The notes under the pieces were generated by a model. It worked only from the letters and a program-made list of their open reading frames with translations. It ran no database searches and was not told the DNA's origin. DNA of 64,000 nt, taken from positions 17,815,382 through 17,879,381 of the forward strand of contig JAJEKV010000001.1 in assembly GCA_021234155.1 (NCBI GenBank), given 5' to 3'. Below, one piece after another: positions 31,071-63,099 of the stretch (position 1 is its first letter; every line of letters begins with the position of its first letter). The translations under genes were made by a program, and so were the position numbers. Source of the DNA: Isoetes taiwanensis (taxonomy: Eukaryota > Streptophyta > Lycopodiopsida > Isoetales > Isoetaceae).

Positions 31071-31127
31071 GTTAAATTTGCATGGCAGCCCTTCCATTCT
31101 TTTGAAGGGCGCTTCCAAAACTTGCCT

Positions 31128-33498: not shown

Positions 33499-34171
<673 letters not shown>

Positions 34172-34393
34172 GGGTTAAATTTGCATGGCAGCCCTTCCAT
34201 TCTTTTGAAGGGCGCTTCCAAAACTTGCCTTTCAGTTTGAATGGCAGTTTTTAACATTGCCATTCTGCTGCATAGTAATTTTTTTGGCTGCCATTCAATA
34301 CAATAATTAACAAATTAAACAGATAATTCTTAAACCATGAATTTGCCTTATCGAATATAATACTCAATGAATCCATATATTCATATTAAAAAG

Positions 34394-36881: not shown

Positions 36882-37225
36882 CTGGCTTTGTATTTTGAAT
36901 GAGCAAGAAGCATTCTATAATGGAATGGAAGAGAAAGACAAAATGCAACCATATTACTAACCTGGTTTTGGTGATCCTGCCTGCCACAATATTTATCTAA
37001 TACAAATGTAGAGCCATGTGTTGTCTGATCACATAAGAAAATGGTATAAGAAACAGTAAGAAAATTGGGACGAAATGCCAAATTGCCAATAGACTATAAT
37101 ATAAAAAATGGTTTTACCTGTATGCATCAGCCTCAGAGATCTCCCCTGCCCACAAATCGTACTTATAAATCTCATACTCATAAGTTCGGTAATTGTTCTT
37201 CTTCTACTGCTTTTGCTTCAACAGA

Positions 37226-37840
37226 TGTCTTCGGCTGCCCTGCACACCACAACAGAGATACTCAACTCTGACTGATCATCATAAAGCCAAACAACAACAA
37301 CAACAACAACGACGACAACAACAACAAGAAGATAATTCAGAAAATTCTGACAAACTCAGAAGAATAAGACTATGATTACATGCTATGATTGTAGACAGAA
37401 AGGGCATTATTGGAATCAGTGCCCTGAATTTAAGAAATGGCTGCTGCAGTCCACTCGTTCGAACAATTCAGCCAATACATCTACATATACAAAAACAAAT
37501 TTGAATATGGCTCAATGATCTGTCTTCATATCTCAGCCTTATGAAGAAGATAAGGGAATTATGACTCTGATGCTACTAAACATGTTAACAGGTGCCTCAA
37601 ATCTTCTGGTTTTGGAGGAAGATCAGGTGATGGTTACCATGAGAAATGGACACCATTATTACAATCTGAAAGGAAGGGGATTTACATCTTAAGTCTGCTT
37701 ACACTGTTTGGAAGTTCCAGACGTGTCTTACTTACCAGGGATTCAAACCAACTTTTCAACGTCCTCTTTGGTCGACATCTTCGGCTGCCCTGCCATACCA
37801 CAACAGAGATAATCGAGGCGGATGCGATGCCATACCTATA
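37226..37840 (+). pseudogene. Copia gag/protease fragment, unit 3
   Basis: Same fragment, with a short, interrupted CAA tract. Confidence 0.75.
37292..37327 (+). repeat. short interrupted CAA tract in unit 3
   Basis: CAA x6, CGA x2, CAA x4. Homologous position to the long tracts in units 1 and 2. Confidence 0.9.
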
Positions 37841-38062
37841 GGGTTAAATTTGCATGGCAGCCCTTCCATTCTTTTGAAGGGCGCTTCCAAAACTTGCCTT
37901 TCGGTTTGAATGGCAGTTTTTAACATTGCCATTCTGCTGCATAGTAATTTTTTTGGCTGCCATTCAATACAATAATTAACAAATTAAACAGATAATTCTT
38001 AAACCATGAATTTGCCTTATCGAATATAATACTCAATGAATCCATATATTCATATTAAAAAG

Positions 38063-40553: not shown

Positions 40554-40896
40554 CTGCTTTGTATTTTGAATGAGCAAGAAGCATTCTATAATGGAATGGA
40601 AGAGAAAGACAAAATGCAACCATATTACTAACCTGGTTTTGGTGATCCTGCCTGCCACAATATTTATCTAATACAAATGTAGAGCCATGTGTTGTCTGAT
40701 CACACAAGAAAATGGTATAAGAAACAGTAAGAAAATTGGGACGAAATGCCAAATTGCCAATAGACTATAATATAAAAAATGGTTTTACCTGTATGCATCA
40801 GCCTCAGAGATCTCCCCTGCCCACAAATCGTACTTATAAATCTCATACTCATAAGTTCGGTAATTGTTCTTCTTCTACTGCTTTTGCTTCAACAGA

Positions 40897-41493
40897 TGTC
40901 TTCGGCTGCCCTGCACACCACAACAGAGATACTCAACTCTGACTGATCATCATAAAGCCAAACAACAACAAGAAGAAGAAGAAGATAATTCAGAAAATTC
41001 TGACAAACTCAAAAGAATAAGTCTATGATTACATGCTATGATTGTAGACAGAAAGGGCATTATTGGAATCAGTGCCCTGAATTTAAGAAATGGCTGCTGC
41101 AGTCCACTCGTTCGAACAATTCAGCCAATACATCTACATATACAAAAACAAATTTGAATATGGCTCAATGATCTGTCTTCATATCTCAGCCTTATGAAGA
41201 AGATAAGGGAATTATGACTCTGATGCTACTAAACATGTTAACAGGTGCCTCAAATCTTCTGGTTTTGGAGGAAGATCAGGTGATGGTTACCATGAGAAAT
41301 GGACACCATTATTACAATCTGAAAGGAAAGGGATTTACATCTTAAGTCTGCTTACACTGTTTGGAAGTTCCAGACGTGTCTTACTTACCAGGGATTCAAA
41401 CCAACTTTTCAACGTCCTCTTTGGTCGACATCTTCGGCTGCCCTGCCATACCACAACAGAGATAATCGAGGCGGATGCGATGCCATACCTATA
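40897..41493 (+). pseudogene. Copia gag/protease fragment, unit 4
   Basis: Same fragment. The CAA tract is reduced to about three repeats followed by GAA repeats. Confidence 0.75.
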
Positions 41494-41715
41494 GGGTTAA
41501 ATTTGCATGGCAGCCCTTCCATTCTTTTGAAGGGCGCTTCCAAAACTTGCCTTTCGGTTTGAATGGCAGTTTTTAACATTGCCATTCTGCTGCATAGTAA
41601 TTTTTTTGGCTGCCATTCAATACAATAATTAACAAATTAAACAGATAATTCTTAAACCATGAATTTGCCTTATCGAATATAATACTCAATGAATCCATAT
41701 ATTCATATTAAAAAG

Positions 41716-44192
41716 TTACAATGGCAAAGCACGACGTTGCTTTTTGTCCATCCAATTAGAAAAAATCAATTCATAATCAGTATCTACATAACTAGGTGTT
41801 GATAATGACAAAAACATCAAGGTCTCAAGTGTAGTCAGCAATAGGCGTTCCCTGTCTTCATCTTTTATCAAATTCTGTCTTCGAAAACCACGCTCACGCT
41901 CTACAGAACTTGCTGGAAGAACAAGAGTGGCCTGCCACAGTTTCATTACTTCATCGTAAACATCAAAGTTAAATTGTTGCTCTCTGCAAGCATCCCATAA
42001 TGCTATGTTTTTACGGCCATGCTGCACATTTAATCTCGCAACAAATGCAAATGCTTGTCCTTTGCATTTTTCAATATCAACAAATCCATACCTCCCTTCT
42101 CCAAAGTTCTTGCACAAAGTAGTTGCCCATTTTTCAGTTTGTTGCTCTATCTCCACACTACCAATAGCATAGTCATTCGTTGAGAAGAGTTTTGTGTTTT
42201 CCAATACATCGCCTGTTCGTTCTTGAAACCTTTGCCTTAAACATGATATAACTTTAGCCACAAACTCTTGACCAAGTTTTGAATGAAGAGATAGTCTCCT
42301 CGAATGTTGAGGTATCAAATGCACTGAGAATCCATGCTTAGAACAGAAACACTTTTAAGTTTAGAGCATAAAAGAAAGCATATACCTATGAGGAAATCCA
42401 TCCTCATCCTTGTGGATATACTTGGCACCCTTTCCAAAAGACGTCAACAAATATCTTGATCTCAAGATAGCAATGCTAGAAGAAACAGTAGAGGATATGA
42501 TCGAAATTTCAATCATCCCTTCTTGGAATTGCTTATTAAGAAGATTAAGTTCGAGCAAAACATCCGCTAAAAAATGAAAATAAAATTGTACACTTGCCTT
42601 CTTGAAGGTATTAAGGAGTTCAGGTTCATCATTTGTCTCCCATAAGTGCAATAAAGCAGGCATCAACTTCACAATTCTGGATATTACATTTCCACGAGAA
42701 AGCCATCTTACTTCATGAATTTGTTGCAAATTCAGCCTTGACAAATCAAATGCCTCCTCCAATAAGCGTAAACTGGCATGCCTCTTTGTAGACCTGCCTA
42801 CCCATGTACACTCTTTTCTTTCCAACTTCTCCAGATCTCGAAATATAGGAAAATAATTGAAGGCGTCGCTTGCTGCAAGTGCCTCTCGATGGGCAACACA
42901 ATGTACACCCACCAAGTGAGGCACATCTTTACGAAGTTGTGTCACAAGGCCATTTTGTGTGCCAATCATTGCTGAACAACCATCAACTGCAATACCCACC
43001 ATTATTGAGAAAGGCAAACACAAATCATTCAAACAAGAAACAATAAGAAGAAGAAGAAGAAGAAGAGATTTTAATGTCACGCCACAAGGCAGAATATTGT
43101 CATAAAGTGTATTTGATGTACCATCTTTGATTGCAAGAAGCTTTAGAAAACGAGTACACGGGGTGCCTTTGCCTTTCTCCTTCATGTAACTAACATATAC
43201 AATAAGATGTTGTTCTAGAGACCTGTCTGTACTTTCATCTACCATTATAGAGAAGAACGAACTCTCCAAAACTTCTTGTAGCAATACTTGCAAGTACACT
43301 CGATGCGCCGCCGCCATGAATTCTTTGCCTATGCCATCCAAGCACAAAAATTAATAAATTCATTTTCTTGTAAAAAACAATTTAATTGCTTTAAAAGCAT
43401 AGATTCACACAAAGCTGAAACATGGAGAAAACATAAAGAGGAAACATAGATTAGCTTTAGAACGTAAAGAGAAAACATAGAGAAATAAAGAACAGAGTGA
43501 GAAGCATAGCGATGTAAGTTATATATACCTGCCATAAGATTTGTATACGATGAATACTCGTCATTGATGGGCATATTAGGCGTTCCAATCCACCTTTGAA
43601 ATTCACAAAGCCGCTCATACTCTTTTAAGGATTGCATTTGTGATGCAACCTTATATGCACATTTGATTACAGATATGATACGATCCTTCTCTTGTACACA
43701 TTCAAGAATCACATGCTGTGGAATTGTGGATGTAGCAGGATTGGCCTTAGCATTCATGCGGAGCACAGCAAGTTTATGTGCCTCTGATTTGTCATGAGTA
43801 GCCAAAGCTCCCAATTGTATAGATTTACTTCCCTCCTTCGCAAACGGCGTGTCCATCTTGTATTTCATGCACCACCTACATTTAACCCACTGATTTGGAG
43901 GAATACCAACAACAAAGTTCCACTTGTATTTCTCTGCCCAACTGTCTTTCCATTTTCGACTGTACTTGGACTTCTTAGTGTCTGGTTCATTTGCTTCACC
44001 ATAGTCTTCATCAGATAGCTCATCTCCGTCAATCAAATCTAGCTCCAAATTCAGGTCTACTAGAGTTCTCGATGTCTGAATGCTGCTGGCATGTGACCCT
44101 TCAATAGCGGCAGCAGCATTAGAAGATAAATAACGCAGTTTGAATGCTTTGAGGAGACTTTGCTGCGTGCGATCTTTCTTGGGCCTCCCCAT
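41716..44192 (-). pseudogene. hAT-type transposase, unit 5 (best preserved N-terminus)
   Basis: Exon 1 runs 44192-43529 without a break (221 codons plus one nt), from MGRPKKD through an intact WVKCRWCMKYKM zinc finger to NLMAG, then a GT-AG intron to 43328. Exon 2 (43328 to about 42390) is open, but carries an in-frame insertion with a GAA/CTT run (about 43044-43100, Leu repeat in the protein) and a 15-codon deletion near 42415. The last exon (42324-41716) has the same frame-shifting junction as unit 1. Closest to a coding copy, yet still defective as written. Confidence 0.85.
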
Positions 44193-44528
44193 CTGGCTTT
44201 GTATTTTGAATGAGCAAGAAGCATTCTATAATGGAATGGAAGAGAAAGATAAAATGCAACCATATTACTAACCTGGTTTTGGTGATCCTGCCTGCCCACA
44301 GTATTTGTCTAATACAAATGTAGAGCCATGTGTTGTCTGATCACACAAGAAAATGGTATAAGAAACAGTAAGAAAATTGGGACGAAATGCCAAATTGCCA
44401 ATAGACTATAATATAAAAAATGGTTTTACCTGTATGCATCAGCCTCAGAGATCCCACAAATCGTACTTATAAATCTCATACTCATAAGTTCTGTAACTGT
44501 TCTTCTTCTACTGCTTTTTCTTCAACAG

Positions 44529-44718
44529 ATGTCTTCGGCTGCCCTGCCACCACAACAGACATACTCAACTCTGACTGATCATCATAAAGGCAAACAACAA
44601 CAACAAAAAGATCATTCAAAAAATTTTGACAAACTCAGAAGAATAAGTCTATGATTACATGCTACGGTTGTAGACAGAAAGGGCATTATTGGAATCAGTG
44701 CGCTAAATTTAAGAAATG
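44529..44718 (+). pseudogene. Copia gag fragment, unit 5, truncated
   Basis: Keeps the gag end and the zinc knuckle, then stops at AAGAAATG. The missing remainder (from ATGGCTGC onwards) is found inverted at 45687-46066. Confidence 0.8.
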
Positions 44719-46066
44719 ATGGCATATTCAACAAAACATGGACTTATTCAGATATAATAGACAGGGATATCATTTTAAAATTATATGTCATGTTTAATTC
44801 TTCTTGATTCTTATAATTTTTCCAAGTTTTAATTATATAACTTTATCTTTAAAGTATAATTGTTATAGAAACATACAATTGCTTTCTAAACTAATTTTCA
44901 CGTGAATCTATTTAGAATTAGACATTTCAAGAATATAAAATTTTAATTTTTAGTGATTTCTTATTAAATTTAAATTTGGCAATCAGGATAATTTGTAAAT
45001 GAAATATGATAGTTTAATAAGTGATTGACTTAAAATTATATGAGAATTTTACAATTTACAAACTCTTAGCACTTTAAAAATACTTTAAAAAAGTGTTAGA
45101 TCAAAATTAATCAAAAGATAAAGTTCATGTTTTAATAACAAATATTGAATAGTTTATTATTGATGAAATAAATATATATTAAATAAATATTATTAAAAAA
45201 AAATGAACGTTGCGGTACCATTCTGGAGCCCTCCAGCCATGCAGAGAATGGCACTTCATTTTATAGCCATGCAGAAGAACGGCAATATAGAAAAGTGCCA
45301 TTCAAACCAAAATGCAGAAAAATAATATAGCCATTCAATAGAATGGTTATCATTTTTAAAAATTTCTAATTTTATGCATACATATAATATTTTATTTTAA
45401 TACGTATATGTCGAATATTTTTCCTTCCCAACCCAATATTATATGTCATATCTTGTATTGTATATATAATGCGTGTCTATGCAATGTATTATCTAACTAT
45501 GTATTAAATAAAGTTTTTGGTTAGTTGGTTGGAATTAGTGGTGGTGGTGCACGATTTGAGAAAAAGTTGACAATGGCAACCACCACCACACCACCATTGT
45601 TGAATGCAAAATTAAATATTTTTCTAATTTCAAGTTCTTCTTGATCGGGCGGTGATGGGCGGCCCCTTTTTCTTGATAATTCTAGCACAGGTATGGCATC
45701 GCATCCTCCTCGATTATCTCTGTTGTGGTGTGGTAGGGCAGCCGAAGATGTCAACCAAAGAGGACGTTGAAAAGTTGGCTCGAATCCCTAGTAAGTAAGG
45801 CACGTCCGGAACTTAAGAAGTAAATCCCCTTCCGTTCAGATTGTAATAATGGTGTCCATTTCTCATGGTAACCATCACCTGATTTTCCTCCAAAACCAAA
45901 ATATTTGAGGCACCTGTTAACATGTTTAGTAGCACCAGAGTCATAATTCCCTTATCTTCTTCATAAGGCTGAGATATGAAGACAGATTATTGAGCCATAT
46001 TCAAATTTGTTTTTGTATATGTAGATGTATTGGCTGAATTGTTTGAACGAGTGGACTGCAGCCATT
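44719..46066. repeat. inverted block ending the array
   Basis: 45687-46066 is the reverse complement of the Copia fragment found in the units, and it begins exactly where the unit 5 fragment stops. 45240-45355 resembles, in reverse, the GCCATTC/GAATGGC-rich stretch that opens each unit. The order is therefore that of a unit junction turned round, with about 330 bp of extra sequence between the two parts. The rest (44760-45200) is AT-rich. The short ORF at 45521-45754 (minus) covers this reversed junction and is not a gene. Confidence 0.75.
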
Positions 46067-46805: not shown

Positions 46806-47139
46806 TGTTAACCACCTAGTGGTTAACATTGTGCACATGTTAGGTGTCAGTGGTGGCAGACTGACACTTGGCATGCTTAGGTTAACTTAAGTGTATGGCT
46901 TAGATTTAGCTAGATGTAGGGCTCAGATTTGCGGTCTACACTATATTAGACCGGAGCCTCTTTAGATGTACTCAGGTTTGATCTCAAATTTGGAGAGCCT
47001 CATTTGGCGCACATTTCCCGCATTCTTTGTGCATATTTTGTCTCTTTCTTGTTTCATGATCTTGAGCATGGCTGGCTTGTAGCATCCGGCAGTCATGGAC
47101 TGCTGCTGCAAGACGTATGCCAAGAACTCAAAATTAACA
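46806..47139 (+). repeat. 5' LTR
   Basis: 334 bp, TGTTAA...TTAACA termini. Just inside the left end, GTTAACCACCTAGTGGTTAAC is a perfect palindrome. Confidence 0.95.
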
Positions 47140-47140
47140 C

Positions 47141-47159
47141 TGGCGCCGTTATGCCGGGG
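47141..47159 (+). other. primer-binding site, Asp-tRNA type
   Basis: TGGCGCCGTT then GCCGGGG, the classical plant PBS complementary to tRNA-Asp, interrupted by two extra bases (AT). Confidence 0.8.
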
Positions 47160-49400
47160 TTCGCTCAAGATCATTTCTTTAGCCTTGCTGTTTGCTGTTG
47201 TCTTGCTATGCTTCTCCGTTTTGAAAACTTTTTGTATACTATTCTTCCCCCTTAAATTTCCTTAGTTTGCCCAACCAAGTCCATTCATGTATTCGTTTGG
47301 AGGCTTTTGTTTTTTCAAAACACCTGATGATTCTGCCAGCTGATCAATTTACTCTCGTAAATCTGTTCTCAAGACCACATTCTTGATCAAAGAAGCCAAG
47401 CCGGTTCTGTAAAGGATTCTTTGGAGTGGTGATGACACTCCTCTTTGCAAGATTATCAGAAAATCCACTGTTTGATCCCTTTTTCCATTCCACTTCCGTC
47501 CTTTTCTATTTCCCTTGTTTTATCAAAAAAAAAAATTCTGTGCCCTTGCACATCCCAAAAATATTTTGTATCACATGGCACATCTCAATATGGAGCATAT
47601 CAGGAAGGACATAAGTGTCTGCTTCAGCAAATTTTAAGCCTGTCATGACAATTTCTTCTTCAAATTATTTGGTTGAGGGCCAGCACCTTGGCTAGCCCCC
47701 ATCCTTCAGAGGTGGTATCTTACGGCATCAACACCAAGAAACCTAGGTTCAATGGTCACAAAGAGCTGGAAGTTCAAACATTATGCAGCCGGCAGTCAGT
47801 TTTGCATCGAGGCATCCACAGATTCCTGTTTTACCTGCAATCAATCATCTGGTTCGATACTGAGGTCAAGCAAACACAGCCAAGAGCAAATTTCTTTATT
47901 GAATCGCTATAGCCTTCAGCTTCAGTTTTGCTTCTTATTGAAGTTTTTCAAGAGGGCCAGCTCTGTGGCTAGCCCCCATCCATTATTCACCAGCAAAGTA
48001 TCGTCTGGTTTGACACCTTCAGCTATCCTGCATCACATACACTCAGTTAGCATCTTATATCCATCTGCTCCCGCAAGTATCGGTTGCAACTTCAGCAAGC
48101 ACATTTATCAGCGGATCCTTGAAGCATCAGGTCGGCCTTCTTCAAGCTGTTTTATCTCTCCAAGTTCTTCAGCACAGCTAATGCAGATTCATACACCGCT
48201 ATCATTTTGCACTCTGTTTTCAGCACCCTATGTGCAGAGAAGGATTTTCTTCAAATATTTCGGCCTCAACTTTGTATGCCTTCTTGAATTTTTTCACAAG
48301 AGCCAGCTCTGTGTCTAGCCCCCATCTATTATTCACAAGCAACGACTCAGCCTCTGTACCTGCATCAAATCCCCTGGGTTAGCAGCTTTTCTAGAGCATA
48401 TTTGGAGCAGAACAAGTCACGCATCATTGTTTCCAAGCAAAGCCATCTGATTTCTGCCTGTTTCCAACGTTGACACTTGCATAAAAAACTGCATCACCTT
48501 TTTCCCATTACCCTCTGTTTATACAAGCAATAGTATTGCCTTTGATCCGGCCGCTTCTCAAGCCAAATCCGGCACAAAATAGCATCATTGCTCCAATTCC
48601 GGCATTCTATCAGGGCCCGGCCTCCATTTTTCAGAGCTTTCTATCAGCGGCTTCGCAATCCTACTATATCAGGGCCTTCCTTCTATTTTTGAACTTTCTA
48701 TCAGAGATATCCGGAAGTCTTGGCCGACATACCTGCAAATCCGACAGCCATACCTATGTTTTCTTCAAGAGGCCTCACGCTAGGGTTTTTTTGACCCAAC
48801 GGCTCAGATCTGGCCGCCCCTAATTTTATGGTTCAGATGAAGTTTTCATATTAGGTCACGCCACACTTCACGGTCCACGCCAACCACGGTCCTCATTCCC
48901 ACGCTCATGCCCACGGCCACGGGCCACGGCCCACGCCAAGGATTTTAACTGGCTGATAACAGGTCACGCTCAGCCCACGGGCCAGGCTCACGCTGACGCC
49001 CAGGGCCAACCCACGCCAAAGCCACGCTTTTGTTCAACGCCCACGCTTCAGTACACGCTTTCCATGGCTGATAATGGGGTCCGCTTTTATGGTGTTTACA
49101 CTTTTAAAGACCCCTATAATTGTTTTTAAGCAACATTTTGGGCCCTATTTGTTAAATGGACTTACCCATAATATAAGGGGATGGTCTTTATGTTTTTTTT
49201 GGCCCAAAGTTCCTATGATCCATGTTCTGCATCGACCTTCCTTCGGATCCTCTTCGTCATCAATGCCTTCATGAAGATCTTTCGGCAACACAATCAACCA
49301 TTACCATTATCATCATTTTCGCCCCTAAATTTTTGGCACCATGTTGTAAGTGTCGGACTTGTCTTATAAAAGTCTGTGCATATTTTTGTGCTAAAAAACT

Positions 49401-49415
49401 TTTAGGGGGAGGCAG
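49401..49415 (+). other. polypurine tract
   Basis: TTTAGGGGGAGGCAG directly before the right LTR. Confidence 0.85.
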
Positions 49416-49749
49416 TGTTAACCACCTAGTGGTTAACATTGTGCACATGTTAGGTGTCAGTGGTGGCAGACTGACACTTGGCATGCTTAGGTTAACTTAA
49501 GTGTATGGCTTAGATTTAGCTAGATGTAGGGCTCAGATTTGCGGTCTACACTATATTAGACCGGAGCCTCTTCAGATGTACTCAGGTTTGATCTCAAATT
49601 TGGAGAGCCTCATTTGGCGCACATTTCCCGCATTCTTTGTGCATATTTTGTCTCTTTCTTGTTTCATGATCTTGAGCATGGCTGGCTTGTAGCATCCGGC
49701 AGTCATGGACTGCTGCTGCAAGACGTATGCCAAGAACTCAAAATTAACA
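49416..49749 (+). repeat. 3' LTR
   Basis: 334 bp, nearly identical to 46806-47139 (one visible substitution, T to C, near 49572), followed by TTAGT. Confidence 0.95.
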
Positions 49750-51952: not shown

Positions 51953-52322
51953 AGCTATCCGTAAAAAACGGCACGTAACATCTGCTAAAAAATTCTTTGT
52001 AGGTTGTGGAAGCTGGAGTAGGCCATGGTAGGATCAAGTTTCCCACAAGCACCTCTTTGGCACCAACATTGACCAAAACAGACTGATTTACGCCTCCAAG
52101 AAGCCCCTTACCAACCACACAACCATCTTTGAAGAGGTTCAACAAAATGAAATCAAAAGACATTACATAAACCTTTACAACACAATCAAAGACGGCTACA
52201 ACAACCTCATATCCTGCCCTACCAAAATTAAGAAATATTGGTACCTTAAATTAAGAAATACTGGTACCTTAAACGGAGGGGCATCATCTAAACTATCCAA
52301 ACAACATATGCTATTTCAACTA

Positions 52323-53692
52323 TAGACAATAAATTTCAATACAATTTTGCCCTAATACAAAGATAATTCAGTTATTTTTTCCTATCCAATTACCTTGCCC
52401 TAATTTTCCCGAGCCTTTATTTTGTATGGCCTCTGGCGTGTCTTTTTGCTTTTTTTTTTTTTTTTTTTTTTTTTTTTTGGCTCTTGTGTTGCTATGCTCT
52501 TGTGTTCTTTGTGCTCCTTGAACATTAAGTTTGTAGATTAATATGGTGTTTGATTTTGAAGGTTATCATTGTTTTTAATTTCTAGGTTCAATCTAGTAAG
52601 CGTGGACTTCAGGTAGGTCACGCCTAATGGAATTATCCAGGTTCAATTCTTCAAAGATACTTTAATTTTCTTACTTAATTTGAATTGCAATTGCTATTTC
52701 ACACTGGCTGTGATAATCTAGAATGTGATTGCAAGCTCACATTCGTTGATCCGTATTGATTGTTACATTCTTTATATTATTTAACAAGACCATTCAATAT
52801 CAAATTGCCTTGTATTTTATGATGCATGGCGTATATCTTCTTGTCCAAAGTATGTACTCCAATGTCATTTTAACCTTTTGATTCTTAACGAAGAACAAAA
52901 CTTGCCCAGATTGCTTGATCTTCCCAGCATATGCTAGATTATTCTCCTGACCAATGGTTGGGATAGCCATAAAGTAGGTTTTTAGCGATAAAGCAGGATT
53001 TTCTCATTTATTTTTACACAATAGGCTGGACGAAGAGGGAAAGGTGTGTCGCTACAAGCTGGAGATGGTGTACTCATTTTTATTGACTCATCTACAAAAA
53101 TTAACTTCTTGTTATTGTTTTCTGGAGCTTTGGCCTTGTTCATTACTTGATTCTTAACAAAGAATAAGTATTATTCCTAGAAGAACTTTCCAAGGTGTGA
53201 AAACTAATTTTGTGGAATATGATGACTCAAGATCTATGAGGAAGGATGGAGGTAGTCTGGAGCTATTGATATGTTAAGTGCAGGAAATGTCGGAACTTAT
53301 TTTTCAAAGTTTTTGGGGTTCTCAGTTTTCTTTTTTTATTCATCTTTCGATCTTATTCTCCACTTATAAAACTAGGCAACAACTTCTTGATGTTTCTTGG
53401 AAGCACAAAGAACAACCACCAAAATCCCTCATTTTAAAAGTTGTTCTGAATGGGTAGGCCAATCTGTTCCTAAGCAATAGGGCAGTAGTATAGAAATAAA
53501 GAATCAAGTTTGCCAAAAATGGAGTTTTCAAATGTTGAAATCCATACTATTCCAAGGCATTTGATTCCAGCTTATGGAATCCAAAGCAGTCACAAAAAAG
53601 CTAACTTTTTATGCCATATCTGTCTGACTCTAGCATTCTTTGCAACAAACATCTACTCAAAATAAGCTATTCAAGATAACGTAAACTTACAT
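52323..53692 (+). repeat. about 1.37-kb direct repeat, left copy
   Basis: Nearly identical to 59684-61048: about ten substitutions plus differences in a T run (about 29 versus 26) and a single-base indel. Begins TAGACAATAAATTTC and ends GTAAACTTACAT. It has no TG/CA ends and no target duplication, so it is not a standard LTR. Inside are short exon-like pieces (AG|GTTCAATCTAGTAAG...CAG|GTAGGT), suggesting a captured gene fragment. No long ORF. Confidence 0.93.
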
Positions 53693-54132
53693 GCTATAAA
53701 TGGATGGTGCAGTAGGGTTGACATTGAGTACAGTTAGAGGCCATGAATTCTTGCTCGTATACTCGTTGGTTTTTGGTGCGAGAAGGGGACGGAAATATGA
53801 GTCGTCGCCATTTATTGTTACTAAGGTTTCATGAAAGGCAATTGACAGTGTTGAGGGCTTATGGGATGGTTTTTTACCTTGAAATGAACGGGACCTTGAT
53901 CTTGAGAACTGATGTGACAATTCAAGTTTTCCGTAAAAGACAATATCATGGACGATGAAATGGATGTATAGTTGTAGATCCGTTTGATCGATATGATAAT
54001 ATATTGCAAGATTGGATTTGATGTGGTTAAGAACTTATACGTTAATATAAATATATATAAATGAGTGTAATGTGACAAAAAAAAGTATCTACTATGCCTG
54101 TTGCACGATATATATTCTGAAGACATCATCTT

Positions 54133-54513
54133 ATGTTGCTTTGTAGCGCAATGGAGGAACAACCTCGGAAGGAAGTTGAAAGTACACCATTGCATATTAG
54201 TCAAGAGATGGGTGAATGTTCAAACAGTCAGACAGCATTGCATGAAATTTCAGGGAAGAGGAAGCCGTCAAGGATATGTGGAATTAATGGAAAAATTAAA
54301 AAAAGGAGGCGAAATCAGATTGCATTGCATATAGCGTCGCATAGGTTATGTTCAAAGCCAAGCGCATCGAAGAGATTAGACATGCAAATAGAGAGGTTAT
54401 CAGCGGAATTGGACAAGATATCCAGTGAAGTTACTAGGTTATCTGTGAATATTAACAGGATATGTGGGCAGCTAACTCGATTGCATCGCCTTCTGCAAAT
54501 AATTGAGTCCTAG
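54133..54513 (+). CDS. unknown basic, coiled-coil-like small protein
   Basis: 126 codons (a later start at 54151 gives MEEQPRKE). The middle is strongly basic (KIKKRRR). The C-terminal third has heptad-like spacing of Leu/Ile (ERLSAELDKISSEVTRLSVNI) and may form a coiled coil. I do not recognise it. It stands in the same orientation as the helicase, about 1.3 kb upstream, and might be an accessory ORF of the element or a captured host exon. Confidence 0.35.
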   Translation: MLLCSAMEEQPRKEVESTPLHISQEMGECSNSQTALHEISGKRKPSRICGINGKIKKRRRNQIALHIASHRLCSKPSASKRLDMQIERLSAELDKISSEVTRLSVNINRICGQLTRLHRLLQIIES

Positions 54514-54735
54514 TGATGTTGCAAGAAGCATGTGGGCCAAGCAATGAAGGAAAAAATATTGAAAATATTACTATATCTAATATACAAATATATAGATTTT
54601 TGTTGTGTATGTATAAAGACAATGGGCCAGATTTTCTTATTGATCTTTTTGCTTCATGTGAGCTTTCAGTGGTTTGTATAGAATCACAAATAGAATCAAA
54701 CATAACTTTTCTCAAATGTGTGTTTATATGTGCAG

Positions 54736-54783
54736 AGGTTAATTGTAACTGTTGCTGATGCGCGTGACATAACTATAAATGAA
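54736..54783 (+). other. exon-like segment
   Basis: Flanked by GTGCAG and GTACGT, open as RLIVTVADARDITINE, and in phase with a possible next exon at 54952 (ISMGRLLPDDIL...). The same upstream sequence (CAAATGT.TGTTTATATGTGCAG) recurs at about 55556, followed by another GTACGT, so the segment may be locally duplicated. Function unknown. Confidence 0.3.
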
Positions 54784-55044
54784 GTACGTATTCTTCAAAA
54801 ATGTTATAATCTTGCTGGTTGTGCGTAGTGTTAACCTAGGTCTTAAATTCAATATCAATTAGATAGCGGCTAGAAAACATGAGTATTTGGCAAAATTTTT
54901 AACTACCTACATAAAAAAGTTACTTACGTGATCCTATATATATGTTGATAGATTTCAATGGGTAGACTGTTGCCTGATGATATTCTTATTCAAATGCATG
55001 GGAACAAATGTCTTCTTTGTGTAACCATTCGAGAGTTATAATAT

Positions 55045-55323
55045 ATGTTGGACGAACCTTATTACATGAATTGTGGTTGGTTGGAGGGATTTGGGCCAGC
55101 AATCTATAATGCACTTGCTGAGACAAAATATTTTCCCGATTCCCTATTTACACAAGTCGAAGCAGTAAACACGTATAGACCATGTGCAGCTTTGGCATAT
55201 TTTTTGCGCAAATATGGGAATCCAAGATTTCCTAAACCAGTTGCTGTCTTTCGAGTGGAAGCAAATTGGGTTGAAGAAACCTTGAAAGTTTTAGTTTACA
55301 AAGTCTCAGATGATATATCGTAG
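55045..55323 (+). CDS. unknown 92-residue ORF
   Basis: Starts MLDEPYYMNCGWLEGFGPAIY and has a protein-like composition (NTYRPCAALAYFLRKYGNPRFP). An in-frame stop six nucleotides upstream separates it from the exon-like frame at 54952-55041 (GRLLPDDILIQMHGNKC), so the two could once have been one protein. No domain recognised. Lies 450 bp before the helicase gene. Confidence 0.35.
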   Translation: MLDEPYYMNCGWLEGFGPAIYNALAETKYFPDSLFTQVEAVNTYRPCAALAYFLRKYGNPRFPKPVAVFRVEANWVEETLKVLVYKVSDDIS

Positions 55324-55771
55324 TGTGTTGTTGATCAATTTTTGTTGTCTCAACTTAGTCACACATTTATACTACATATGAGTTAAATCCTATTTACATT
55401 GGTATAAAGCGTGTTTTTCCTCTCACGAATGCACATGCAATTTTAGAATACACGTGTACGTAAACGCAAGTAATAAATATATGAGGTTTTATCATGCTTT
55501 TGTTTCTTGTGAGTTAGTGGAGTGGTTTCTATCGGATTTATATAGATAACTTTTCCAAATGTATGTTTATATGTGCAGTGTGCTATGGTTCATCGTTGTT
55601 TGCTGGTCACGATCTATATGAAATGAGATGATATATGGATCAAAGCGATAAGAAAAATAGGTACGTATTTTCTGAGTATTTCGTATTTTCCTGGTTGTAT
55701 ATCGTGTTAATTATTTTAGCATCTCCGTAAATTCTTGATTGTGCATAGTGATAGCCAAAATTTCAAGTTCA

Positions 55772-58558
55772 ATGCCAACTAGAAAGAGATTAGAAAGAAT
55801 GAACGAAGAAGATAGAGAGAGGCTACGTCAAAGGAGAAGAGAGCGATATGCAGTTCGTACAGAAGGTGAAAAAAATCGATTGCGACAGATGGAAAGTAGT
55901 AGGCGGACAGAGAGAAGAAGAGAAGTGAGGAGGATATGTCAATTGAGAGAGCCATTCGATGAGCAGTTAACCAAGGATTTACCGGATTTGAATATGCCTT
56001 CTGATAACGTGATATCGTCCACCATAGAACCTATCGATATATGTCAATTGAGAGAGCCATTCGATGAGCAGTTAACCAGGGATTTACCGGATTTGAATAT
56101 GCCTTCTGTTAACGTGATATCGTCCACCATAGAACCTATCGATCACAATGGATCGACCGATGTAGATATAGATACAAACATTGATGGTGGTCCATTAAGG
56201 ACCATTGTTGGTGTGCTTGAGACCAGTATAGGTGATGGGCAAGGACCTTTGACCCATTGGCGATCTTGTGCACATCGTATGAGCTTGGCAGTAAGTCGAA
56301 CTTATACAATGTGCACGTGGAACAAGAGGTGTACGTATTGCCAGATACCATTACTCAGCGTTGAGCAAGATGGTTTTTGTTGCAATAATGGAAAGTGGTT
56401 ATTACCTTCATTGCCATCTTTGCCTAGAATACTGGAAAACTTATACAGTACGCCTGGTTTTGACGTAGATGCAAGGAAAGTGAACAAACTATTTTGTTTC
56501 AGTGTTCTTGGAGTTGACGGTGGGTTTGTAAACCTGGGTTTTCCTTCTTCTGTGACAATTACGGGTCGCACGTATCATCGACTGCTTCCTACTACAGATA
56601 TTGGAAATCCAATACACTGGTACATTTACGACGAGTCACAACGTTATGAACAGGGACGTCGTCAAGGGGTGCCATTTCAATGGATTGCAATCGTAGGGTC
56701 AGTTCTTGACCAAATTAACCCATATATTCGAAATCTCCGAACTATGGGAAGTATGCACGTACCATCGGCATACATAACGATTGAAGGAGCAATTGCAACT
56801 GATGAGATTGCGGCCATTGCCGACGTTAATAACACGACCAATATAAGGCCTCGAGTCGCTGGTTTTTGGGTGCAAAATGAAGGAGAGCCGACATTCATGA
56901 ATATTCTTGATCCTATGTATGAGCCACTTCAGTATCCTCTATTCTACCCCCATGGAACATTAGGTTGGGGGCCTGCAAATGAGTACAATTTCACGCAGTT
57001 GCAATGGTATAGGTCGAGATTGTTGCATGAGGATCGTTTCTTGCAACTAGGGCGATTATGTGGGGAGTATTTAGTTGACATGTACTCGAGGATTGAGGAT
57101 GCCAGGTTAAATTATTTCAGAACGTCGGCCTTTCGTACTAGGAGAGTGCAATATGATCACGCAGATCACGCAGTGTCTTTAAACAGTGCGATGGAGATGA
57201 CAAGTACAATGAATGCTAACCAATTAGAAGTATATAACTATTTACGTCAGGATTTGGAATGCGCGCAAAGCAAGCATCCAATATTCGTAAACGGCAAAGC
57301 TGGCACAGGAAAGACTTTTGTCCTTAATTGCATATGCCTGTTGATACGAGGAAATCAAAACATCGTGCATCCATGTGGCACGACAGCACTTGCCGCTCTG
57401 CAATACCCAGGGGGACGAACTGCGCACTCACTTTTCCAAATCCCTGTTGTGGAAAACAATGTGGGTCTGCATTCATTACTCGATCGAGATTCGGGAGCGG
57501 CTCAACTCCTTAGTGCAGCAAAGGCCATAATATGGGATGAATTTCCGATGGCTAATAAAGCAGTGATAGAGAGCGTGAACAACCTATTGCAGCAAGTATG
57601 TAGAAATGCTTTACCCTTTGGAGGTAAGCACTTTACGGCTTCTGGAGATTTTAGACAAGTAGCACCAGTGGTGAAAGGAGGAGGCAAAACTGCAACAATC
57701 AATGCATCTATAAAATCGTCACCACTATGGCAGGCATTTCACGTGTTGAAGTTAGAGCAGCCAGTACGAAATGCAGGAGATTCTGAGCTCATGCATTATG
57801 TAGACAATATAGGAGAAAATTGCTCTCTAGACATATTTAATACAACCACCGATATTGTAGACGCAGAAATATTTCTCTATCCGTCAAACATTTTGAGGAA
57901 TCCAATTGAATGTGGAAGGCGTGCATTTCTGTCGCCTATCAACAAGCATGCCACCGATTTCAATGAACGTATGTTGAGAAAAGTTTCTAGTCAAAGTAAG
58001 TCATACTACAGTCACGATCACATTAGCGAACAAGAGGAACCCATTCTTGATCACCCCTATGCAACGTCGGATTTTCTTAACAATTTCACACATTCTGGCA
58101 TTCCTGACCATGAGCTCAAACTCAAAGTAGGGGCAATATGCCATGTTATGAAGCGCCTCGATATAGAAAAAGGTCTCGTGAAAAATGCAAGAGTAATGAT
58201 TACCTCAATGCATGAGAAATTCGTAATGGCCAAAGTATTGGGTTCGACTGCACCATCAAATAGTAGTACATATCCAATCTCTAGAGCCGATTTTTTTTAC
58301 CAACCAGATAACATGCCATGGACTATCCATAGACGTCAACTACCACTACGACTGGCATACTCTACCACATTTAATAGTTGCCAAGGATTAACACTGGATC
58401 GTGTTGTACTTGATTTGCGCACTAATGTGTTCGCACATGGTCAATTATATACCGCACTCACGCGTATACGAAAGAGGGAAGATGTGTTGATACTACTGTC
58501 TCCAGAGAATACAACGAAACGCACCGCAAACGTTGTCTACAAAGAGCTTCTTTGCTGA
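55772..58558 (+). CDS. Helitron-type protein: N domain fused to PIF1 helicase, HUH Rep missing
   Basis: 928 codons from ATG at 55772; the frame is open a little further upstream. Residues 1-45 are Arg/Glu-rich (RERLRQRRRERY), common at Helitron N-termini. A 35-residue unit (ICQLREPFDEQL...) is tandemly repeated at 55-124. Residues 190-450 are the Helitron-like N region: Cys-rich WNKRCTYC, QYPLFYPHGTLGW, RIEDARLNYFR. From about 480 to the end is a PIF1/RecD-type helicase: Walker A GKAGTGKT (508-515), Walker B IIWDEFPM (about 587-594), GDFRQVAPV, the conserved STTFNSCQGLTL and YTALTRIRKREDV. Between these the Rep nuclease with its HUH and Tyr motifs, normally hundreds of residues, is absent, yet the frame is unbroken. 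It may thus unwind DNA but could not nick it. Confidence 0.85.
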   Translation: MPTRKRLERMNEEDRERLRQRRRERYAVRTEGEKNRLRQMESSRRTERRREVRRICQLREPFDEQLTKDLPDLNMPSDNVISSTIEPIDICQLREPFDEQLTRDLPDLNMPSVNVISSTIEPIDHNGSTDVDIDTNIDGGPLRTIVGVLETSIGDGQGPLTHWRSCAHRMSLAVSRTYTMCTWNKRCTYCQIPLLSVEQDGFCCNNGKWLLPSLPSLPRILENLYSTPGFDVDARKVNKLFCFSVLGVDGGFVNLGFPSSVTITGRTYHRLLPTTDIGNPIHWYIYDESQRYEQGRRQGVPFQWIAIVGSVLDQINPYIRNLRTMGSMHVPSAYITIEGAIATDEIAAIADVNNTTNIRPRVAGFWVQNEGEPTFMNILDPMYEPLQYPLFYPHGTLGWGPANEYNFTQLQWYRSRLLHEDRFLQLGRLCGEYLVDMYSRIEDARLNYFRTSAFRTRRVQYDHADHAVSLNSAMEMTSTMNANQLEVYNYLRQDLECAQSKHPIFVNGKAGTGKTFVLNCICLLIRGNQNIVHPCGTTALAALQYPGGRTAHSLFQIPVVENNVGLHSLLDRDSGAAQLLSAAKAIIWDEFPMANKAVIESVNNLLQQVCRNALPFGGKHFTASGDFRQVAPVVKGGGKTATINASIKSSPLWQAFHVLKLEQPVRNAGDSELMHYVDNIGENCSLDIFNTTTDIVDAEIFLYPSNILRNPIECGRRAFLSPINKHATDFNERMLRKVSSQSKSYYSHDHISEQEEPILDHPYATSDFLNNFTHSGIPDHELKLKVGAICHVMKRLDIEKGLVKNARVMITSMHEKFVMAKVLGSTAPSNSSTYPISRADFFYQPDNMPWTIHRRQLPLRLAYSTTFNSCQGLTLDRVVLDLRTNVFAHGQLYTALTRIRKREDVLILLSPENTTKRTANVVYKELLC
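55934..56143 (+). repeat. 105-bp in-frame tandem duplication in the helicase gene
   Basis: Two adjacent copies starting ATATGTCAATTGAGAG (55934 and 56039), differing at about three bases. They keep the reading frame and duplicate 35 residues. Confidence 0.95.
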
Positions 58559-58920
58559 GAATGTACGTCTCCTTTGCTACTCTTCTCTCTATTTTCGGTT
58601 TGTATGATAGATGGTAATATGTATAAATACAATAAAATACTCGTCATGTGTTTGTTTGTTTTTTTTTTTTTAATGAGGCTCGAGAGCAAAAAATATGTAA
58701 ATAATGAAGTGGCACTGAGGACGTCGTCTACGGATAACTCACCCGTCTCCGCGGGTGAAGGTACATCCTCTATTCTCGTATAGAACATTGGCAAGAAATT
58801 GGACTTCATATAAGGTACGTTCTCTCAACCTTTTATGGATATCACCTTCTGCCCGTGTGATATATAGTCTACTGTTCGATTACCATGAGATTCCCCTCAT
58901 CTGTGTTTTATCGAGCTGAT
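58559..58920 (+). other. 3' flank of the helicase gene
   Basis: AT-rich with a T run near 58665; probably 3' UTR. No further gene seen. Confidence 0.4.
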
Positions 58921-58931
58921 ATAAATGGACA

Positions 58932-59270
58932 AACAAAGAAATATCCATTGCGATGATAGTCTAGTGATCAAGCCATTGGTTATGGGCAAGATCCACCTGG
59001 GCTCAAAACCCACTGATTATCATCGGGTGATTCAAAGAGGAAAAAAATATCCATCGCGCTCGCAGATTAGTGGTCAAGCCATTGGTCATGGGCGTCCCCC
59101 ATCCAGGCTCAAAACCCACTGTCTGCGATCGGATGGTAGCAAAACAGGATGAAAAAAAAGACATCTATCGCGCTCGCAGTCTAGTGGTCAGGCCATTGGT
59201 TATGGGCAAAACCCCAACCAGGCTCAAAACCCACTGTCTGCCATCGGATGGTGGCAAAAAGAACGAAGAG
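58932..59270 (+). repeat. three tandem tRNA-like units of about 115 bp
   Basis: Each unit has an A-box-like stretch (AGTCTAGTGGTCAGG; about 58958, 59067, 59179) and, some 30-40 nt later, a B-box-like GGCTCAAAACCCACTG (about 58999, 59105, 59220). The units differ by a few bases. This resembles the head of tRNA-derived SINEs. None folds into a convincing complete tRNA by eye. Confidence 0.7.
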
Positions 59271-59329
59271 AGAGAATGAAAAAATAAGAAGGAATGAAGA
59301 AATGCAAAAAAAAATGTTACAATGATATA

Positions 59330-59430
59330 CAGTGGGAATCCTATGGTCATCGACCACAGAAACCATGTATCACATGGGCAAGAGAACACAAGGCAGTAGC
59401 ACAGGTTCAAATCCCGTGTGTTATCAAACT
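59330..59430 (+). repeat. fourth, divergent tRNA-like unit with a perfect B box
   Basis: GGTTCAAATCCC (59404-59415) matches the pol III B-box consensus, with a possible A box upstream (ATGGTCATCGACC). Not a complete tRNA. Confidence 0.5.
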
Positions 59431-59648
59431 ACTAGATTGCGCATGAGCTGCATATATTCATCAAAGATATCGTATGAGCTGCATATGTTCATCAAAAATA
59501 TCGTGAATACATTTCATCAAAAATATCACGAATACATTTCAAAATCCGTAAAACTTTCGCATTAATTTGGCTTCAAATGAATATTGCATTATCAAACATT
59601 CGACATTAATTGAGGTCCAACTTTGTGGGTTTTAAACGAGAGAGATGT

Positions 59649-59672
59649 TCGCGGCGGCCTTGGCCGCCGCGA
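59649..59672. repeat. GC-rich perfect hairpin, candidate Helitron 3' terminator
   Basis: TCGCGGCGGCC and GGCCGCCGCGA are exact complements around a TT loop. Eleven bases follow, ending in CTTG, before the right direct repeat starts with T. The geometry fits the hairpin near a Helitron 3' end; the terminal tetranucleotide departs from CTRR. Confidence 0.65.
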
Positions 59673-59683
59673 TAAATTTCTTG

Positions 59684-61048
59684 TAGACAATAAATTTCAA
59701 TACAATTTTGCCCTAATACAAAGATAATTCAGTTATTTTTTCCTATCCAATTACCTTGCCCTAATTTTCCCGAGCCTTTATTTTGTATGGCCTCTGGCGT
59801 GTCTTTTTGCTTTTTTTTTTTTTTTTTTTTTTTTTTGCTCTTGTGTTGCTATGCTCTTGTGTTCTTTGTGCTCCTTGAACATTAAGTTTGTAGATTAATA
59901 TGATGTTTGATTTTGAAGGTTATCATTGTTTTTAATTTCTAGGTTCAATCTAGTAAGCGTGGACTTCAGGTAGGTCACGCCTAATGGAATTATCCAGGTT
60001 CAATTCTTCAAAGATACTCTAATTTTCTTACTTAATTTGAATTGCAATTGCTATTTCACACTGGCTGTGATAATCTAGAATGTGATTGCAAGCTCACATT
60101 GGTTGATCCGTATTGATTGTTACATTCTTTATATTATTTAACAAGACCATTCAATATCAAATTGCCTTGTATTTTATGATGCATGGCGTATATCTTCTTG
60201 TCCAAAGTATGTACTCCAATGTCATTTTAACCTTTTGATTCTTAATGAAGAACAAAACTTGCCCAGATTGCTTGATCTTCCCAGCATATGCTAGATTATT
60301 CTCCTGAACAATGGTTGGGATAGCCATAAAGTAGGTTTTAGCGATAAAGCAGGATTTTCTCATTTATTTTTACACAATAGGCTGGACGAAGAGGGAAAGG
60401 TGTGTCGCTACAAGCTGGAGATGGTGTACTCATTTTTATTGACTCATCTACAAAAATTAACTTCTTGTTATTGTTTTCTGGAGCTTTGGCCTTGTTCATT
60501 ACTTGATTCTTAACAAAGAATAAGTATTATTCCTAGAAGAACCTTCCAAGGTGTGAAAACTAATTTTGTGGAATATGATGACTCAAGATCTATGAGGAAG
60601 GATGGAGGTAGTCTGGAGCTATTGATATGTTAAGTGCAGGAAATGTCGGAACTTATTTTTCAAAGTTTTTGGGGTTCTCAGTTTTCTTTTTTTATTCATC
60701 TTTCGATCTTATTCTCCACTTATAAAACTAGGCAACAACTTCTTGCAGTTTCTTGGAAGCACAAAGAACAACCACCAAAATCCCTCATTTTAAAAGTTGT
60801 TCTGAATGGGTAGGCCAATCTGTTCCTAAGCAATAGGGCAGTAGTATAGAAATAAAGAATCAAGTTTGCCAAAAATGGAGTTTTCAAATGTTGAAATCCA
60901 TACTATTCCAAGGCATTTGATTCCAGCTTATGGAATCCAAAGCAGTCACAAAAAAGCTAACTTTTTATGCCATATCTGTCTGACTCTAGCATTCTTTGCA
61001 ACAAACATCTACTCAAAATAAGCTATTCAAGATAACGTAAACTTACAT
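59684..61048 (+). repeat. about 1.37-kb direct repeat, right copy
   Basis: Second copy of 52323-53692. Its left border coincides with the proposed Helitron end. Its right border is followed by CTGAACAAAAGG, unrelated to the sequence after the left copy. Confidence 0.93.
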
Positions 61049-61689
61049 CTGAACAAAAGGCGGCCTGAGTTTTCTCCTCGCCTAAAGCTTATACTGCATA
61101 AAACACCAATTTCAGCAAAAGATTAGATCAAATAAGAACAAGCACGGTCAGTCACTCCAACTTCATCTTCCATTGCACTCTTTGATCATGGCGTTGCCTC
61201 TGCTTTTGTTCTAGATATTGCTCCAACTCTAAGTTTTGTTTTAGTCCCAGATTTCAATAGTGATTATAATCTAGGTTTTTGATAAAGAGCTATGAAGACG
61301 ACCTTTAGGATTGATTGCAAGTTATTTATGTGAAGTCTTTTCACTATTGTCATTTCAAAAACCATTTTTCTAAGGATATCAGATCACTCGAGTCATTTCA
61401 TTTTTCCTCCAAAATCAGACAGTTGGGTCTTTTGATTCAGGGCTGCTGCATTTTAGTCACAAGATCATTTTATGCTGCCTCTTCCACGTGCAGTGCACAA
61501 ATAAATATCATTCTACCAAGTTATCCCAATCTTAAAGACAGTGCGGCCTGGTTGATCTTACAGTCTTAGTTATTTGTACATGGTTGAAAAGGTACCCTTG
61601 CCAATTCAATGACAAACTTATACATTATCCCCAGATGCCAGAACAAGTTCCTTTGCATAAATATTTGCTATATATGATGAGTCAATTTT
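61049..61689. other. no separate gene; decayed 3' part of the PPR gene at the right end
   Basis: About 61608-61689 continues, on the minus strand, the E-motif reading frame of the PPR gene beyond its stop codon (KIDSSYIANIYAKELV). The rest shows no supported feature. Confidence 0.5.
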
Positions 61690-63099
61690 TTAATCCAATT
61701 CAGAAAGGGCTGCAAACTTCCCACTTAATCGATCACCATAAATCTTATACGAATTTAGGAGAGATCTCCATGCTGTGCCATCGGCTTCAAAAGGCATGTT
61801 GTTAATCAAAGATTCAACTAAATCAAGACCTGAACATCCAAGGAAATCAATCATACAGGTGAAATGTTCCAACACTGGGGCAATGACATTATCAGTGCTC
61901 ATGGACACAAAGAAGTGGTAACAGTCACTTTCCATGCCCGCATATACGCATGCGGAGAGAATACTAACAAGAGTGATGCTATTGGGCATTACACCTTTCA
62001 ACATCATTTGCTGAAACATTTCAAGTGCCTCCTTGAAATGCCCACATTGAGCATATGCTGCAATCATGGCAGTCCAAGAAATCACATTATGCTCAGGCAT
62101 CTTGGTAAATATTTCACATGCTTCTTCTACAGCTCCACACTTAGAATACATATTAATCAATGCATTCATGACAGCAACAGCTGCCCCAATCCCATATTGT
62201 AAAATGTAGTTGTGCATCTTCCTACCTAAAGCTAGATCAGCCTTTCTTGCACATATGTCAAGAATGCTAATAAATGTAATTTTGTCAGGTATCACCCCTT
62301 GCAATTGCATTTGATAGAAGAAAGTAACAGCATGGTCTAGCATTTCATGTTGCCCATACGACGCGATCATCACATTCCAGGTAACTACATTTCTCTGGGG
62401 CATGGATCTGAACAATTGATAGGCCTCTTGGAGGTGGCCATGGTGGGCATAACCAGAAATCAGTATAGACCAAGACACCTCATCATGTGGCATGATGCTA
62501 AAAAGTATGACCGCCTCATTGAGCTTACTGTTTTGAATATAACCTGAAAGCATGGTATTCCAAGAAATGATATTTCTTTCTGGCATGTTATAGAACACTT
62601 GGCATGCTTCTTGTAACAGACCTGCCTTGGCATAACCTGCAACCATTGTAGTCCATGTTATGACATCTCGTTCGGGCATGTGCTGAAATAGCTGAAGTGC
62701 CTCCTCCATCATTCCCTGCCCAGCATAACCAGCAACAATTATGTTCCAAGAAAAGATATTCCTTCTATGGATATGATCAAAGACATTCCTCGCATTCTGC
62801 AAATCTCCACACTTGCAATACATCTCCATAAGAAGGTTTACTATGTAAATATCTTTTTGTAACATATTATCTCTGATGTAATGATGGATGCGCTTACCGT
62901 CTGAGAGAGCCTTTGTGTCTCCACAGGTCTTTAAGCTTGCAGCAACGACATATCTATCAATATACTTTTGATTACATATTTGCAACCCTGGAGATGGCAT
63001 TACCTGCCTGTTTGCTTCAATTTGCAAGGTACATTGATTCAGCATGCGAATGCAACTCCAACGGTATGACAAACTGGAATGGATCCCACTTCTCAACAT
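61690..63099 (-). CDS. PLS-type pentatricopeptide repeat protein, cut within the E motif
   Basis: 469 codons without introns, start ATG at 63099, TAA at 61690. About ten consecutive PPR motifs occupy residues 50-400, recognisable by WNxMIAxYxxxG and A.xLFxxMPERD/N spacing (ERDVITWTTMVAGYAKAG, ERNIISWNTMLSGYIQ, HNVISWTAMIAAYAQCG). An E-like region starts near 415 (INNMPFEADGTAWRSLLNSYKIYGD). The stop falls at ELD|*, where family members continue; after it the same frame still reads KIDSSYIANIYAKELV. No E+ or DYW domain follows. Related proteins bind organellar RNA and guide editing or processing. The first 45 residues might be a targeting peptide. It may be a truncated but working gene or a recent pseudogene. 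Confidence 0.8.
   Translation of the reverse strand: MLRSGIHSSLSYRWSCIRMLNQCTLQIEANRQVMPSPGLQICNQKYIDRYVVAASLKTCGDTKALSDGKRIHHYIRDNMLQKDIYIVNLLMEMYCKCGDLQNARNVFDHIHRRNIFSWNIIVAGYAGQGMMEEALQLFQHMPERDVITWTTMVAGYAKAGLLQEACQVFYNMPERNIISWNTMLSGYIQNSKLNEAVILFSIMPHDEVSWSILISGYAHHGHLQEAYQLFRSMPQRNVVTWNVMIASYGQHEMLDHAVTFFYQMQLQGVIPDKITFISILDICARKADLALGRKMHNYILQYGIGAAVAVMNALINMYSKCGAVEEACEIFTKMPEHNVISWTAMIAAYAQCGHFKEALEMFQQMMLKGVMPNSITLVSILSACVYAGMESDCYHFFVSMSTDNVIAPVLEHFTCMIDFLGCSGLDLVESLINNMPFEADGTAWRSLLNSYKIYGDRLSGKFAALSELD

Follow-up and report, generated by a model that had tools for sequence, protein, structure and literature searches.

Are the two near-identical direct repeats of 1.37 kb that flank a helicase-coding island in the genome of Isoetes taiwanensis the ends of a mobile element, or are they host DNA duplicated around it? 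The locus lies in contig JAJEKV010000001.1, within a stretch of 64,000 nucleotides that was analysed as a whole (hereafter, the window), and is composed of a left flank (P), the left repeat (A), the island (H), the right repeat (A') and a right flank (Q), with the coordinates given in Table 1. We conclude that a truncated Helitron stands here between two copies of duplicated target DNA, most likely as the product of a repair or replication accident at the insertion.

The repeats, of 1370 nt (A) and 1365 nt (A'), are identical in 1357 of 1370 aligned columns, and differ in eight substituted columns (0.6%) and five indel columns, four where a poly-T tract ends and one within a T run; there is not a single N across the whole window. 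Searches of the plant's own genome covered 1,658,258,908 bases in 1110 contigs and retrieved, among the 41 matches listed for A (40 scored of 386 candidates), only A and A' as full-length copies, with parts of A behaving as dispersed repeats. The repeat starts with TAGACA and finishes with TTACAT, and its outer flanks, AACTA and CTGAA, are not alike; when examined as long terminal repeats (LTRs) of a retrotransposon, with an expected target-site duplication (TSD) of 4–6 bp, A and A' showed neither TG...CA termini nor a short flanking duplication. The window holds its own yardstick for this comparison, a young LTR element (46806-49749) whose 334-bp direct repeats are 99.7% identical and run from TGTTAA to TTAACA, with a 5-bp TSD (TTAGT), and which thus displays the ends and the TSD that A and A' lack. 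The original prediction had noted, correctly, both the near identity of the two flanking repeats and their want of LTR termini and target duplication, and had proposed to map all copies and their borders; this check was run in the plant's own genome and, among the matches listed, the repeat is not widespread with LTR ends. It had also likened the two copies to the arms of a composite element, which our data contradict: there is no further full-length A among the matches listed, both ends of A lie inside older repeats instead of being the defined ends of a mobile arm, and both outer borders are host DNA. The termini, the TSD check and these borders rule out A and A' as an LTR or composite element.

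Both outer borders are native. With a query of 200 bases of P and 150 of A, the P-A border (52322/52323) was crossed by the left copy and by 38 others, and A' alone began there (40 scored of 453 candidates); the alignment with one of these copies (L008) spans 52145-52470 and crosses the border residue by residue. On the other side, a query across the A'-Q border gave 21 matches: the border is crossed by A' itself and by nine of the 19 non-window matches and coincides exactly with the end of the left copy, the other ten non-window matches being non-crossing pieces, one of which starts 5 bases on the A' side. Since P-A and A'-Q are each continuous in paralogs, each is native, and the ancestral locus was P-A-Q, in part made up of older dispersed repeats; A is thus duplicated target DNA, and neither the 5' end of a Helitron nor an LTR. 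In effect, P and A together represent the empty site (..CAACTA/TAGACA..), and the right copy is the same site filled on its 3' side (..TTTCTTG/TAGACA..). Read-through transposition carrying flanking DNA, one of the models originally put forward, finds no support here, because P-A and A'-Q are each native. Many matches to A start at its positions 1-3, as they would at the terminus of a repeat or of a Helitron, and the border-spanning query showed this to be an artefact of the query start. The dispersed host repeat that harbours the Helitron insertion site (52145-52478) is ca. 330 bp long, ends in poly-T and has at least 38 other copies.

The island ends at the first base of A', exactly where a Helitron should end according to the original prediction. 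The excerpt of PMC4067079 describes canonical Helitrons as having a 5' TC, a 3' CTRR and a palindrome ca. 11 bp from the end, and as inserting between the nucleotides A and T. Using the last 300 bases of H as a query, we retrieved many dispersed copies ending at an identical base; all 21 family ends printed, the window's included, stop at the last base of H and are followed by TA, and ca. 18 of the 21 are independent, as the look-alike flanks in L022 and L031, in L012 and L014 and at the two ends of L033 are probably due to later duplication. The right edge of H is thus a true Helitron 3' end, as predicted and correct to the base. The stem of the terminal hairpin finishes 12 nt before 59683, in agreement with the canonical spacing, whereas the family ends in CTTG (19 of 21) or CTTA (2 of 21) instead of CTRR. 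Insertion between A and T also agrees with the data, in that the unoccupied left copy reads ..CTA/TAG.. and a T follows the 3' end in the 21 cases, the A side being taken from the window locus alone. One member of the family (L033, in contig C1053 near 6435188) has a second 3' terminus, a 21-nt remnant (GCCGCCGCGATAAATTTCTTG) 71 bp beyond the first; both termini precede near-equal 47-bp flanks with two differing positions, and the 71-bp repeat is made up of the remnant of the 3' end plus flank. Another repeated Helitron end is found in L016, where the 21-nt 3' tail is appended behind a partial first tail (..GGCTGCCGCGATAA followed by GCCGCCGCGATAAATTTCTTG).

The left edge of H has a different nature. 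When positions 1900-2660 of a relative, L040, were used as a query, the equivalent of the breakpoint was crossed by 32 of the 46 rows (31 besides that of L040 itself); the 14 others lie to one side, begin beside the breakpoint or are the two from the window, and the window row starts right there. Likewise, in alignments to L040, six relatives (L051, L052 and L054-L057) run through the breakpoint, with L058 starting after it and the stretch fetched for L053 ending just before it. A further relative, on contig C1041, matches L040 piecewise as far as position 936 of the latter, ca. 1.28 kb upstream of the breakpoint. H therefore lacks the 5' part carried by its relatives, and position 53693 was ruled out as a true 5' end; because the relatives run through the breakpoint, the left edge of H is not a Helitron end but a truncation. 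The exact 5' end of the family was sought in L040 and in the C1041 relative, and was not found in these two. At this edge, H is fused to position 1370 of A, both sharing a 6-nt overlap (TTACAT). A query across the A-H joint gave 46 rows, in which six on the A side (A' included) stop at query position 200 and six on the H side begin at 195, and the window's own row is the only one listed that extends beyond the overlap on both sides. Among the relatives printed, the region of the overlap mostly reads TTACGTGC, and TTACATGC in L056; that is, TTACGT as opposed to the TTACAT of L056 and of A.

The island is helicase-coding, as originally described, but it is a remnant from which the HUH nuclease region, present in L040, has been deleted. 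The product of its main open reading frame (ORF) matches PIF1 helicase (1.9e-47), and matches Helitron_like_N only at 2-69 of 191, with an E value of 0.08 that falls under the cut-off of the family. Aligned to the solved Helraiser protein (7lcc), it gives a strong match at 1024-1469, a weak one at 363-470 (18.6 bits) and an insignificant one at 124-340 (7.7 bits), with zero alignment over 471-1023; the nuclease fragment of Helraiser comprises residues 490-745 (excerpt of PMC4778049). L040 contains an extra 1.62 kb at the deletion point and encodes a full Helitron_like_N (1-191 of 191, 1e-33), by which the family qualifies as a RepHel Helitron, with HUH nuclease and PIF1-type helicase, and the window copy as a deletion derivative that does not encode its own nuclease. 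The deletion joint contains a 9-nt filler, GATCACGCA, in two copies. Repeated filler of this kind is left at joints by error-prone end joining.

The element thus resembles canonical RepHel Helitrons, such as Helraiser, in its Rep/helicase protein family, in the 3' hairpin ca. 11 nt from the end and in its insertion between A and T; unlike them, the family ends in CTTG or CTTA rather than CTRR, and the window copy is devoid of HUH nuclease and 5' end and is flanked by a target duplication of 1.37 kb. This last feature is at odds with the description of Helitrons as making no TSD, given in excerpts of PMC5876387, PMC5148889, PMC6544945, PMC4067079 and PMC4778049, and none of ten other family copies that we searched shows it; we attribute the flanking duplication to a secondary joint. 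Tandem or truncated Helitron arrays from bat, maize and plant centromeres also contain truncated Helitrons beside repeated DNA, although, in the excerpts that describe them (PMC5876387, PMC5148889, PMC4067079), the repeated unit is Helitron sequence and not, as here, host target DNA continuous with both flanks.

In the reading that we favour, and to which we would give an even chance, a microhomology join between an empty and a filled copy of the site, after insertion, created the 1.37-kb duplication and deprived the element of its 5' end in a single step. The Helitron would have inserted between A and T nucleotides at the P-A border, so that its 3' terminus came to lie directly against the first base of A. 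An unoccupied P-A copy would then have been joined at its position +1370, through the TTACAT overlap, to the interior of the inserted Helitron, giving rise to the order P-A-dH-A'-Q (dH, the shortened H); the 1.37 kb of target would thereby have come to stand on either side of the element, which would have lost its 5' part, ca. 1.28 kb or more as judged from two relatives. An unoccupied copy must have taken part, because the contiguity of P and A is possible only from such a copy. As for the event itself, the most likely candidates are a template switch during replication and end joining mediated by microhomology, acting shortly after insertion on two chromatids or homologs, one empty and the other filled. 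The native outer borders, the exact Helitron 3' end, the 5' truncation and the joint with its overlap, which has no match elsewhere among the rows listed, are seen directly in the sequences; the enzymatic step (polymerase or end joining), its partners and its timing are what we infer from the structure of the locus. The 71-bp duplication of L033, in the same family, is a miniature counterpart of this event, with the switch occurring within a filled site, and supports it.

Microhomology-mediated tandem duplications arise by template switching or microhomology-mediated end joining, and the locus is like them in that a segment is directly duplicated and the two sides of the joint share a short overlap; it is unlike them in that the joint links an unoccupied site with the inside of a transposon that occupies this very site. 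Judging by titles and the beginning of abstracts, this arrangement is in none of the papers retrieved on Helitrons with tandem or direct repeats, flanking or long target duplications, microhomology or template switching.

Several observations weigh against this explanation. The overlap amounts to 5/6 (TTACGT), and not 6/6, in most of the relatives seen, and two copies on contig C1025 also begin beside the breakpoint, at query position 313, so that the breakpoint may not be fully random. The partner copies are deduced from the one locus, rather than seen as separate empty and filled alleles of it. Also, the joint could be a later deletion hiding the original one; a later deletion would have shortened the duplication, and therefore 1.37 kb would be only the minimum of its original length. 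Finally, the polarity of the differences between the two repeats is not symmetric. The left copy is derived at 52546 (with L059 as the paralog) and at 52744 (L059 and L060), and probably also at 53390-91, where L003, L004 and L006 have the bases of the right copy and L007 and L005 agree with it only at the first and second base, respectively; L059 and L060 contradict each other at position 52662, which is therefore ambiguous, and paralogs are lacking for 52889, 52951 and 53187. The three polarisable differences thus all point to a change in the left copy, with a chance of 1 in 8 under symmetry, which hints at freshly and inaccurately made DNA slightly more than at a symmetric history.

That polarity is what would be expected if duplication and insertion were coupled, an alternative that we regard as unlikely. 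Here, the 3' end of the Helitron would first be joined to the target T, and the free 3'-OH of P would copy 1.37 kb downstream by strand displacement before switching, via TTACAT, onto a 5'-truncated Helitron strand. One event would then give rise to the exact 3' end, the truncation, the joint and a duplication that extends downstream of the 3' end, and the left copy, with the three changes, would be the newly made one, although the bias consists of three events only. To our knowledge, it is unsettled how the second end of a Helitron gets joined. Leading-strand synthesis started at a nick has been proposed for Helraiser transposition, but at the donor and not at the target (excerpt of PMC5876387), and titles and abstract openings of the papers retrieved provided no precedent for the coupled process. 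It also finds no recurrence within the family: none of ten other copies carries, upstream of the element, a duplication whose start coincides with that of the 3' flank; for these copies, the stretches searched spanned 9.9 kb (eight copies) or 19.7–19.8 kb (two copies), and some may end inside the element, short of its 5' end. The other hits in this search were judged to be background repeats, and consisted of 137 bp at 93% and two shorter pieces in L011, 43 bp at 88% in L017 and six pieces, not colinear, in L019, of which the longest spans 551 bp (72%) and the long piece with the best position spans 158 bp (83%). A 24-nt probe, used at 18 other loci (17 gave rows; L012, with a terminus that departs from the search pattern, gave none), found only the 71-bp duplication of L033; at loci for which an upstream stretch had not been fetched, it covered ca. 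1.1–1.7 kb upstream.

A history in three steps is another explanation to which we assign a low probability: P-A-Q would first have been duplicated in tandem, a Helitron would have inserted into the right unit, and a microhomology-mediated deletion would have run from position 1370 of A in the left unit into the Helitron. Each of these steps is commonplace. The window contains another local duplication, a repeat array at 27482-44718 with a main period of ca. 3.67 kb and pieces that are 91–98% identical; there is microhomology at the A-H joint, and the element carries other deletions. However, three events are needed, and we saw no remains of the intervening DNA that would have been deleted and no sign of a longer duplication, A and A' being the sole full-length matches listed.

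That the assembly misjoined an empty-site haplotype to a haplotype with the Helitron is rather improbable. The genome was assembled from Nanopore reads with Bionano scaffolding, LR_Gapcloser and purge_haplotigs (excerpt of PMC8566536), and the 0.6% substitutions and T-run indels between A and A' resemble alleles or polishing errors. Against this, there are no Ns, the joint is at a 6-nt overlap within the element, which assemblers have no reason to choose, and no read going from A into H would presumably exist to bridge such a gap.

Integration of a circular intermediate by homologous recombination, as originally proposed, fails as it was stated and could operate only if modified, with a circle of truncated Helitron plus A, derived from a filled allele, recombining into an empty A. 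This version yields exactly the order seen, and joined-end Helitron circles are reported in excerpts of PMC5876387 and PMC5148889; we nevertheless deem it very improbable, because the joint is inside the element and not at the Helitron 5' terminus, so that a circle made by the transposase does not fit, and because it requires an extra intermediate that is not needed to explain the locus. The remaining original model, a tail-to-head tandem with the 1.37 kb as the Helitron 5' end, accounts for A' starting immediately past the 3' end and can be practically dismissed, since the left edge of A lies inside a host repeat that 38 of the 39 other scored matches show to be continuous with P, its right edge is host DNA in nine of 19, and the family has a different and longer 5' part.

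Whichever of these histories applies, the target has been kept both empty (left) and filled on its 3' side (right) within 9 kb, and the locus can be read as the record of a single insertion that failed or was repaired. If the duplication was coupled to the insertion, the locus would point to an order in which the 3' end goes first and to the target as a place of DNA synthesis; such a 3'-first pathway, if true, would occasionally leave long target duplications in a class of elements described as making none, and would account for some of the 5'-truncated Helitrons. If it was not coupled, the locus still illustrates cleanly that a faulty join around an insertion can copy host DNA and disable the element. 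It is also a warning that direct repeats beside a Helitron need not be its ends.

Table 1. Features of the Helitron locus (positions in the window, which is 64,000 nucleotides long)
Feature	Position	Strand	Description
P	52145..52322	+	Left flank, inside an older dispersed host repeat; runs unbroken into A
A	52323..53692	+	Left direct-repeat copy; with P, unoccupied (empty-site) target, cut at position 1370
TTACAT overlap	53687..53692	+	6-nt microhomology at the joint of A with the Helitron interior
H	53693..59683	+	Island between A and A'; 5'-truncated, internally deleted Helitron
ORF, 928 aa	55772..58558	+	Helitron N-terminal region and PIF1-type helicase, HUH nuclease region missing
Nuclease-deletion joint	57155..57172	+	Repeated 9-nt filler, GATCACGCA, twice; L040 has 1.62 kb here
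3' hairpin	59650..59671	+	10-bp stem with a loop of 2 nt; 12 nt separate it from the 3' end of the Helitron
Helitron 3' tail, ATAAATTTCTTG	59672..59683	+	TA next; terminus shared by 21/21 printed ends
A'	59684..61048	+	Right direct-repeat copy; with Q, native downstream part of the target
Q	61049..61138	+	Right flank, continuous with A' in older paralogs; L003-L006 align across 61048

Other structures were seen within H. Its first part (53693-53963) is a remnant of a longer stretch of L040, relative to which it has two gaps, and is possibly part of a second Helitron-borne reading frame. Of two small ORFs, that at 54145-54513 was given no name by Pfam, with six weak matches all below the cut-off, and that at 55045-55323 had zero Pfam matches. 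The Helitron ORF contains an in-frame tandem duplication of 105 bp (35 codons; 55934-56143) that is 98% identical. Ahead of the 3' end there are three diverged units of ca. 106–115 bp (58935-59259) that, in our reading, have the look of tRNA A and B boxes; ARAGORN gave no tRNA for them, and neither ARAGORN nor Rfam scans of the window produced any hit. Elsewhere in the window, a piece related to the array at 27482-44718 lies inverted at 45689-46062, and an ORF of 469 aa with PPR repeats (61690-63099, minus strand) adjoins the locus.

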